Source: a virus
Strand: one strand, 5' to 3'
IMG/VR virus record: IMGVR_UViG_3300032770_000001
Span: 1 to 64,000 of that record
DNA: 64,000 nucleotides
The notes under the pieces: model-generated
Databases searched by the model: none
Seen by the model: the letters and a program-made list of their open reading frames with translations, nothing else
What the model was told of the DNA's origin: nothing
Translations under genes and position numbers: made by a program
Shown: piece after piece, positions 25,852 to 31,290 of the stretch
Layout of the letters: the number at the start of each line of letters is the position of its first letter
Numbering within the stretch: the first letter of the stretch is position 1

Positions 25852-25929
25852 TGGTGCCCTCGGCGGGATTTGAACCCACGACGCACGAGTTTAGAATTCG
25901 CCGCTCTGACCTGACTGAGCTACGAGGGC
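25852..25929 (-). tRNA. tRNA with anticodon CTA (amber suppressor), copy 1
   Basis: Acceptor GCCCTCG/CGAGGGC, D stem GCTC/GAGC with ten-base loop, T arm GTGGG-TTCAAAT-CCCGC, CCA encoded. The anticodon stem fits GCGAA/CTCGT (A31-C39 mismatch, as in tRNA-Thr(CGT)), giving loop TTCTAAA and anticodon CTA, which pairs with UAG. Shifting by one to read TCT (Arg) destroys the stem. Confidence 0.65.
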
Positions 25930-25931
25930 TT

Positions 25932-25977
25932 TGGTGGGGCAGCGGTGAATCAACACCTGCGCTTGCGCTACTGCCCC
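25932..25977 (-). ncRNA. mini-tRNA-like element 1 (no anticodon arm)
   Basis: 46 bases within the tRNA array: perfect 7-bp acceptor GGGGCAG/CTGCCCC, TA linker, hairpin GCGC-AA-GCGC, hairpin GGTG-TTGATT-CACC, discriminator A and CCA. The anticodon arm and variable loop of a cloverleaf are absent. Two bases from one tRNA and one from the next. Confidence 0.65.
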
Positions 25978-25978
25978 A

Positions 25979-26052
25979 TGGCACACCCGGTGGGATTCGG
26001 ACCCACATGCGCGGTGTTAGAGACCGCTGTTCTGCCAGTGAACCACGGGTGT
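25979..26052 (-). tRNA. tRNA with anticodon CTA (amber suppressor), copy 2
   Basis: Canonical 74-base cloverleaf: acceptor ACACCCG/CGGGTGT, D arm GTTC/GAAC, perfect anticodon stem GCGGT/ACCGC around CTCTAAC, hence anticodon CTA reading UAG, T arm GTGGG-TCCGAAT-CCCAC, CCA encoded. There is no ambiguity in the loop position. Confidence 0.88.
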
Positions 26053-26092
26053 ATTTTCAAAAAGACAATCGTCTTTTATTCCGTACAAAACT

Positions 26093-26142
26093 TGGTGGGC
26101 GGTGATGATTTGACTCACCCAGCTTTCGCTGTTTTACCGCCC
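26093..26142 (-). ncRNA. mini-tRNA-like element 2 (no anticodon arm)
   Basis: 50 bases: perfect acceptor GGGCGGT/ACCGCCC, AAAA linker, hairpin CAGC-GAAA-GCTG, hairpin GGTGA-GTCAAA-TCATC (one G-T pair), discriminator A and CCA. The stems and loops use every base of the insert. It sits one base from tRNA-Lys. Confidence 0.65.
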
Positions 26143-26143
26143 G

Positions 26144-26225
26144 TGGCACGCTCGGAAGGACTCGAACCTTCGACCCCTCAGTTAAATACTGAGTGCTCTG
26201 AACAAACCAACTGAGCTACGAGCGT
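26144..26225 (-). tRNA. tRNA-Lys(TTT)-like
   Basis: Acceptor ACGCTCG/CGAGCGT, 14-base D loop, anticodon stem CTCAG/CTGAG around TATTTAA, T arm GAAGG-TTCGAGT-CCTTC, CCA encoded. By position the anticodon is TTT (Lys), but base 33 is A instead of the near-universal U. Confidence 0.75.
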
Positions 26226-26444
26226 ATGGTGCGCGGTGAAGGAATCAAACCCCCGACCTCCGGGTCTTGCGACCCGGCGCTCTAACACTGAGCTAACCGC
26301 GCATGGTGGGCACCCCAACTTTCGCCAGAGCACCCGTACAAACTTGGAGCAGACGCCGTGACTTTCGTCTCGGTCGCGAATAGAATCTCTTCGCCGTAGC
26401 AATCCGTCGAAGCAATCCCTCAACGCCTTTTCGTCCGCGTGCAT
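26178..26444 (-). CDS. doubtful frame running into the tRNA array
   Basis: Starts with TAATATG right after the PTH2-like stop: MHADEKALRDCFDGLLRRRD. It continues through mini-element 3 and one tRNA before stopping at 26178 inside the next. Only the first 30-45 residues look like protein. Possibly a gene whose 3' part was replaced by tRNA genes. Confidence 0.3.
   Translation of the reverse strand: MHADEKALRDCFDGLLRRRDSIRDRDESHGVCSKFVRVLWRKLGCPPCAVSSVLERRVARPGGRGFDSFTAHHTLVAQLVCSEHSVFN
26227..26302 (-). tRNA. tRNA with eight-base anticodon loop (identity uncertain)
   Basis: Acceptor GCGCGGT/ACCGCGC, D arm GCTC/GAGC, T arm GGGGG-TTTGATT-CCTTC, CCA encoded. The anticodon stem CCGGG/CCCGG leaves an eight-base loop TCGCAAGA (or a 6-bp stem with a six-base loop). 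GCA (Cys) or CGC (Ala) are both possible readings. Confidence 0.65.
26304..26335 (-). ncRNA. mini-tRNA-like element 3 (single hairpin with CCA)
   Basis: 32 bases: acceptor-like pairing GGGTGCT/GGTGCCC (three G-U pairs), one hairpin CTGGC-GAAA-GTTGG, discriminator A and CCA, one base from the next tRNA. Weaker than elements 1 and 2 because of the wobble pairs and overlap with a possible frame. Confidence 0.35.
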
Positions 26445-26445
26445 A

Positions 26446-26880
26446 TTAAGCCCCGATACGATCCTGTATCGGATAGCCTCCCTCAAACTTCAAAAAAAGA
26501 TTTGGAGCAGGAGCAGCCTCCGCGTGTCTCCACAAACCGTAGTTCGAGAGTACACGGCGCTGCTCCTGCGTGAGCGGGACCGTGGCGACAGCCGTCAAAC
26601 CAAGGTTGTCGTCCGGCTCCGAAAACACGGAGTACCCGATTTCTTTGTCTTTCAACTTGTTGATAACACGGAGTAAAGCGGACTTGTCCGGCACGCCGAT
26701 CACCACGAGATGCGGAATCTGATCGTAAGACGGATCGAGACCCTTCGCCATTTCAAACGTGGCGTGGTTGCTTTGAACTATCTGTTGTGCTAGGGAAATG
26801 TCTTGCCGAACGAAGACGTAGAAGTAGTGTGGTGCTGGTTGCTGCTGATTAACCTACAGATCGCCGATTGCTTTACGCAT
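26446..26880 (-). CDS. PTH2-like peptidyl-tRNA hydrolase-type protein with in-frame UAG
   Basis: The domain HYFYVFVRQDISLAQQIVQS, then HLVVIGVPDKSALL, GYSVFSEPDDNLGLTAVAT and EQRRVLSNYGLW, follows the PTH2-like phage family (RQD..AAQ..VQ..HA, EPD...LTA.AT). Between the nearest Shine-Dalgarno-preceded ATG (26880, MRKAIGDL) and the domain lies a TAG at 26854-26856; no ATG, GTG or TTG follows it before the first conserved strand. A start at 26751 would remove that strand. With readthrough the protein is 144 residues. Two CTA-anticodon tRNAs are encoded just downstream. Confidence 0.7.
26854..26856 (-). other. in-frame amber codon, candidate readthrough site
   Basis: Codon 9 of the PTH2-like frame (CTG TAG GTT). 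The Shine-Dalgarno AGGAG and the ATG lie upstream; the conserved domain lies downstream without a start of its own. Confidence 0.6.
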
Positions 26881-26927
26881 TTGGTTTGCGCTCCTAAACA
26901 TGAGATGTGGTAGTTCTCGAAAAGGTT

Positions 26928-30860: not shown

Positions 30861-30892
30861 TCACAAAATCCAACTGTTCATTACGAATGAAC
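30861..30892 (-). terminator. hairpin after tmRNA
   Basis: GTTCATT-CGT-AATGAAC, a perfect 7-bp stem on the minus strand, followed by AGTTGGATTTT. It lies beyond the tmRNA coding piece and probably ends its transcript. Confidence 0.45.
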
Positions 30893-30894
30893 GT

Positions 30895-31290
30895 CCGGGG
30901 ACCGAAGTCCCCGGTTCTGTTGCAAGGTGCCGTTCAAACCCCGCCAGCAAACCGCAATTAAGCGGCTGCTGCCATTGCCATTGCCTTTGGAGCGTTAGCA
31001 GTTATGTTTTCCGTGTCCGTTGTACGCCGCCGCCGTGTTGCAAATTAACGGTGGTCGCCAGCACCACATCGGTGCCTCGGTAGGCCACAGCATCCGGGGT
31101 CGTCGCTCTCTGTCTCATGCATCTCCGTCGAAGCCTTGTCACGCCCATATCGCGGTGCAAGTGTCCATCAATTTGAATTGGTGGACGTGCCCGGAATCGA
31201 ACCGGGGTCCGAAAATGTGAATCAGCGCGTTTCTCCATCCGGTATGACGTATGCCCAGCCTGTACGCCGAAACGTCAGGCCAAACGGTTC
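30895..31290 (-). ncRNA. ssrA: circularly permuted (two-piece) tmRNA
   Basis: Minus-strand order is acceptor piece, spacer, coding piece. The acceptor piece ends CCCGG-TTCGATT-CCGGG, CACGTCC, A, CCA at 31179. A 32-base spacer follows. The coding piece starts at 31146 with GGGCGTGACAAGGCTTCGAC, the tmRNA 5' signature, and GGGCGTG pairs with CACGTCC. The tag frame at 30999-30961 reads ANAPKAMAMAAAA then TAA, with a GCT AAC resume region typical of tags. A UUCG hairpin (30895-30914) closes the piece. The 5' end of the acceptor piece is estimated. tmRNA rescues stalled ribosomes and tags their products. Confidence 0.9.

Follow-up and report, generated by a model that had tools for sequence, protein, structure and literature searches.

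Why would a conserved phage gene carry a stop codon ahead of the domain that it encodes, with tRNAs able to read that codon encoded nearby? We addressed this question in a 64,000-nucleotide stretch (the window) at the start of virus record IMGVR_UViG_3300032770_000001, which is 455,708 bp long. Its minus strand holds a gene for a protein of predicted PTH2 fold, interrupted at codon 9 by an in-frame UAG (hereafter the gate), and two tRNAs with the matching anticodon CUA. Comparison with relatives makes it highly probable that this is a stop-codon gate on a single gene, opened by the phage's own suppressor tRNA with the standard genetic code kept. The features on which the argument turns are the following.

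26446-26880, minus strand: PTH2-fold gene, its frame running from the ATG at 26880 across the TAG; conservation extends to about 50 non-redundant phages
26854-26856, minus strand: in-frame UAG gate, codon 9; stop retained in 31/31 rows of the window's clade
26891-26895, minus strand: Shine-Dalgarno sequence AGGAG, 10 nt ahead of the ATG, read from the sequence
26752-26826, minus strand: 25 conserved-domain codons preceding the first in-frame start codon; ratio of non-synonymous to synonymous change (pN/pS) 0.05-0.27 against nine relatives
25979-26052, minus strand: suppressor tRNA, anticodon CUA, A1-U72, G73; ARAGORN and Rfam tRNA model
25852-25929, minus strand: suppressor tRNA, anticodon CUA, G1-C72, A73, weak anticodon stem; ARAGORN and Rfam tRNA model

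An in-frame stop ahead of a PTH2-fold domain

On the minus strand, AGGAG (26895-26891) is followed after ten nucleotides by ATG (26880-26878), then by TAG (26856-26854) and the end of the gene at 26446. The frame reads MRKAIGDL-TAG-VNQQQPAPHYFYVFVRQD..., with seven codons between ATG and TAG; an additional in-frame ATG lies at 26901. The sequence-only reading of this locus had placed a Shine-Dalgarno sequence and an ATG eight codons ahead of the TAG, and the domain behind it without an intervening start. Both points held up, as the conserved strand YFYVFVRQD begins at 26826, downstream of the TAG, and the earliest in-frame ATG, GTG or TTG past the stop is at 26751, by which point the first strand and the greater part of the first helix have been encoded. 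The CUA anticodons that it had assigned to both tRNAs were recovered by ARAGORN and the Rfam tRNA model. The gene and these tRNAs share a strand; ~400 nt separate them, the gene lying upstream and further tRNA-like elements in between. An identical run of 751 bases occurs in a contig of another record, and a sequencing error at the TAG was ruled out because about 50 non-redundant relatives have the same arrangement.

Pfam PTH2 (PF01981) matched the window protein at an E value of 0.02-0.03 and 15 bits, under the gathering cut-off of 23, and matched 9 of 17 relatives at E<=0.1 (best 2e-6). The AlphaFold model has a core predicted local distance difference test score of about 95-98, and each of the 14 Protein Data Bank (PDB) matches at E<=0.001 is a PTH2 or a protein of PTH2 fold, indicating that the window protein has the PTH2 fold. 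The lysine of the motif GK...Q..HA, seven residues before the conserved histidine, is the catalytic lysine of PTH2; it is present in the PDB relative and in the protein of phage Atu_ph07, and is glutamine in the window protein. The window protein may therefore act by binding rather than by hydrolysis. No cellular relatives were found in one scan of genome contigs with the sole pattern [AP]QQIVQSN, and none in plasmids.

Across the 25 codons that precede the first start codon, the low pN/pS values point to purifying selection, and we conclude from them that protein-level selection sets in immediately after the stop, before any start codon is reached.

Conservation of the gate and its match to the suppressor anticodon

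The first ten relatives drawn from viral contigs (43-99% identical) all carry an in-frame TAG a few codons past an ATG, as do the GenBank phages ME3, Kaldavass, LR756511, Arash and GAP32, which have a CUA tRNA in the locus or record. Gated relatives reach down to ~30% identity and comprise metagenomic phages and the isolates GAP32, CBB, ME3, Arash, XacN1, CM1, pT24 and mycobacteriophages. Clustering at 90% identity condensed the full set of 81 rows to 76 representatives, of which 50 have a UAG gate, 2 a UGA gate and 24 an open frame. Phage RsoM2USA, reported to encode one CUA tRNA (PMC8504454), was not among the hits listed. A CUA tRNA was found for 46 of the ~50 gated ones. Every row of the window's clade (31/31; support 100/99) has UAG, and the distribution of the gate on the tree needs 6 changes, compared with 22 when the labels are shuffled. 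In 54 of 56 distinct contexts a purine follows the gate directly, compared with 40 of 87 for TAG codons that end open frames of >250 codons in genomes G000, G002 and G003 (p=4e-11). A purine 3' of a stop codon favours suppression over termination. Together, these patterns indicate that the stop is kept by selection.

We then compared stop and anticodon among representatives at 60% identity, with four later phages added by hand. A CUA tRNA is present in the locus or record of 29/32 UAG-gated representatives and 11/25 others (p=3e-4), and in several viral contigs it abuts or overlaps the 3' end of the gene. Two contigs, L121 and L128, have a TGA gate and a UCA tRNA, and the CUA pattern had no match in either; they stand apart on the tree, and the nearest GenBank relatives of both pair UAG with CUA. 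For Atu_ph07, the original paper reports just one UCA suppressor, along with peptidyl-tRNA hydrolases (PMC6102473). From that published tRNA we predicted an in-frame UGA before examining the locus, and found it: one of its three PTH2 loci reads AAAGG-N8-ATG-ATT-GGC-GAA-CAC-TTT-TGA, followed by 22 codons without a start codon and then the domain. The UCA tRNA was confirmed, and the GenBank coding sequence at the gated locus starts inside the domain. A UCA tRNA thus accompanies 3/3 UGA-gated phages and 0/54 elsewhere in the set (p=3e-5), supporting the conclusion that the gate co-varies with the anticodon of the phage's own suppressor tRNA (UAG with CUA, UGA with UCA).

Among mycobacteriophages, IkeLoa, I3 and Gabriel begin ATG-TAG-GTG, and ScoobyDoobyDoo and Phabba GTG-TAG-GTG; all five have a CUA tRNA no more than a few hundred nt from the gene. 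Boxes resembling -35 and -10 elements put the probable start of transcription at the first codon, suggesting that these gated genes are expressed from leaderless messages. In Phabba, the tRNA at L207:3468-3538 is labelled Arg(tct) in GenBank and read as CUA by ARAGORN.

Several observations weigh against gating by a phage suppressor. Homologues with natural starts, which the sequence-only reading had named as evidence to its contrary, do exist. Part of this group fits the proposal all the same: translation of the homologues in RaK2, Hallingskeid, Ahp1, S-CBWM1, L112, L140, L141 and L186 can begin in the ordinary way, and the search for a suppressor tRNA found none in the sequence covered, which for some was the fetched locus or parts of the record. 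The other part does not, as about 11/53 representatives at 60% identity have an ungated gene despite a CUA tRNA. In L189-L192 that tRNA lies directly behind the ungated PTH2-like gene; a UUA tRNA without any gate occurs in LR745208 and the Lak phages. Conversely, no CUA tRNA was detected with the gated genes of L090, L091 and L111, which are partial contigs, or of LR745206, and the sole candidate in gated LR756504 is a tRNA with an odd UCUA loop. Unclear rows were classed by hand: nine with a start codon also between stop and domain, where an alternative start is possible, were kept as gated, and L137, L190 and L202 were moved to open.

L204, and likewise L258 and L259, show an ungated PTH2-like gene with a CUA tRNA directly behind it or a UUA tRNA nearby. 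CUA and UUA tRNAs beside ungated genes imply that the association of PTH2-like genes with suppressor tRNAs extends beyond the gated cases. In Lak-B5 the PTH2-like frame is open from its ATG; the TAA of Lak-A2 was not counted as a gate, the frame appearing broken at an A10 run relative to Lak-B5. This break (L259, upstream of 6001) may reflect slippage or an assembly error.

Taken with these exceptions, the conservation of the stop, its co-variation with the anticodon, its 3' context and the selection upstream of start codons still support the original suggestion that the phage's own tRNA reads through the UAG.

Alternative explanations for the stop

The alternative that survives best, although we consider it improbable, is that AUG-X-UAG serves as a minigene or leader whose purpose is termination. 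Through drop-off or slow release at the UAG it would sense peptidyl-tRNA or the status of release factor 1, the suppressor tRNA would tune the response, and PTH2 would be made from another start. Most often the stop is the third codon from the nearest ATG (35/57), giving two-codon frames that suit this idea; a product related to peptidyl-tRNA metabolism suits it too, as does the start codon behind the stop in the nine rows mentioned above. However, 46 of the 81 rows have no ATG, GTG or TTG between stop and domain, eight codons precede the stop in the window and in L079, the stop tracks the suppressor anticodon, and a purine follows it. The bar minigenes of lambda are likewise very short AUG-X-stop frames tied to peptidyl-tRNA metabolism and Pth; here, unlike there, the reading frame runs on into a conserved gene, and the phage also supplies a cognate suppressor tRNA.

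Slightly less probable again is a chemical rather than regulatory role, in which UAG encodes one specific amino acid needed at that place. In favour, the stop is always N-terminal to the domain, but its distance from the domain ranges from 1 to 16 codons and reaches 183 in fused proteins. In XacN1 and CM1, which have two and one CUA tRNAs, respectively, another domain precedes PTH2, and SD-ATG-AAG-TAG (SD, Shine-Dalgarno sequence) is followed by 183 codons before the PTH2 strand, the stop still being codon 3; what the gate is tied to is therefore the beginning of the frame and not a fixed position in the domain. The CUA tRNAs differ widely from one another (median identity 0.68, with A, G or T as discriminator), so that different phages probably insert different amino acids, which argues for regulation rather than chemistry, and three phages use UGA/UCA in place of UAG/CUA.

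A non-AUG start behind the TAG, or a TAG that marks an error or a pseudogene, is very unlikely. The codon after the TAG is sometimes AUU, AUA, GUG or CUG, and GenBank annotators place several starts downstream (the annotated start is internal in GAP32, CBB, Kaldavass, Arash and Atu_ph07, and the gene is unannotated in the SNUABM phages). In others, however, the next codon is AAU, AAC, AAG or ACC, the Shine-Dalgarno sequence, where seen, precedes the ATG, and both the stop common to about 50 representatives and the purifying selection count against this reading.

To place the gate within its genome, we looked for further cases. A Shine-Dalgarno sequence and ATG followed by a short frame, a stop and a long open frame is not rare in one genome: G000 has 25 such arrangements, 11 of them without an early start, of which 4 have TAG. 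A BLAST of all frames with readthrough was swamped by antisense frames. Among 303 open frames conserved in G000, G002 and G003, two share an in-frame stop of one type in all three, with an ATG <=12 codons upstream, and in both the stop is TAG. The second, at about 143,924 on the minus strand, was rejected, being antisense to an apparent DNA polymerase gene, which leaves the PTH2-fold gene as the only credible gated case in this comparison. Genome-wide recoding of UAG (genetic code 15 or similar), with the PTH2-fold gene as one case among many, can be dismissed almost entirely: CUA tRNAs are encoded here, as by recoded phages, but TAG ends 68/384, 62/307 and 69/375 conserved genes in G000, G002 and G003 (~18-20%), which argues against global recoding, and neither avoidance of TAG as a terminator nor in-frame TAG in many genes, the marks of code 15, was found.

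A possible circuit, its precedents and neighbouring RNAs

Gating by the phage suppressor would work as follows. Without a phage CUA tRNA, ribosomes would terminate at the start-proximal UAG and no protein would be made. Once the suppressor tRNA, whose gene follows a short way downstream in the same orientation, had accumulated, a fraction of ribosomes would decode UAG as an amino acid and yield the full protein. Such readthrough in infected cells, and its timing, we infer from the genomes. Less surely, the protein would act on peptidyl-tRNA or stalled ribosomes, its dose tracking the level of suppression. The result could be a delayed, feed-forward switch, as first suggested for this locus, or a homeostat against suppression damage at ordinary UAG terminators; the negative-feedback logic fits equally well. 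With about one conserved phage gene in five ending in TAG, suppression should cause readthrough elsewhere as well, and a PTH2-fold protein made only under active suppression may deal with the consequences. A transfer-messenger RNA (tmRNA) lies within the fetched flank of 19/60 related loci, and in the window there is the following.

30867-31271, minus strand: permuted tmRNA, ~4 kb upstream of the gated gene; possibly part of the same rescue region

We lean, with clearly less confidence than for the gate itself, towards a general scheme: a natural, code-switchable gate across very different phage lineages, its UAG or UGA co-evolved with the tRNA anticodon, would form an autoregulatory circuit in which the output of a protein that itself works on tRNA or stalled ribosomes scales with suppression.

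Several known systems resemble this arrangement. In code-15 phages, a phage CUA suppressor tRNA also decodes UAG, and timing of expression has been proposed as its purpose (Borges et al. 2022; Peters et al. 2022, PMC9523058; theta-ribozyme paper, PMC10879173); there, however, many late genes have in-frame UAG, whereas here one gene has a single start-proximal UAG. A synthetic feed-forward loop (Ho et al. 2020, PMC7969014) similarly uses a suppressor tRNA to permit nonsense readthrough in a regulated gene, in amber and opal versions; it differs in being engineered, the present arrangement being natural, conserved and joined to a PTH2-fold gene. A survey of jumbo-phage PTH2 proteins of the same fold superfamily suggested a role in ribosome rescue, and the searched parts of that paper do not mention in-frame stops or suppressor tRNAs (PMC7824862). 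By comparison with those proteins, the gated paralogue is divergent and mostly without the catalytic lysine. We found no report of such a gate in the literature consulted, with preprints and most subscription papers outside the search; what is described there is phage suppressor tRNAs, jumbo-phage PTH2, code 15 and the synthetic loop.

Gating would give suppressor tRNAs in standard-code phages a specific target and purpose, a question left open for XacN1, whose authors wrote that they could not identify target genes of these tRNAs (PMC5852040). It would also represent a kind of regulation that gene callers miss, lends itself to testing in phages already in culture, those of M. smegmatis among them, and could supply natural stop/anticodon pairs for synthetic biology.

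The tRNA region of the window has further peculiarities. In the tRNA at 25979-26052, A1-U72, G73 and the anticodon arm resemble those of E. coli tRNA-Trp. A pyrrolysine system was rejected, as the record has no match to the pyrrolysyl-tRNA synthetase PylS and 'tRNA-Pyl' is merely ARAGORN's label for anticodon CUA. Between and beside the CUA tRNAs sit two tRNA-like minihelices of 46-50 nt, at 25932-25977 and about 26093-26142 (both minus strand), with an encoded CCA end and without an anticodon arm. Two odd tRNA-like genes follow at 26143-26225 and 26227-26302 (both minus strand), one with the loop UAUUUAA and no U33, the other called with a four-base anticodon, GCAA. Elsewhere, the CUA tRNAs at L108:6851-6954 and L113:6434-6536 are 103-104 nt long, with an extra segment like a second D-arm and anticodon arm, and at L126:9358-9806 a GOLLD RNA (RF02032) shares the locus with a PTH2-like gene.
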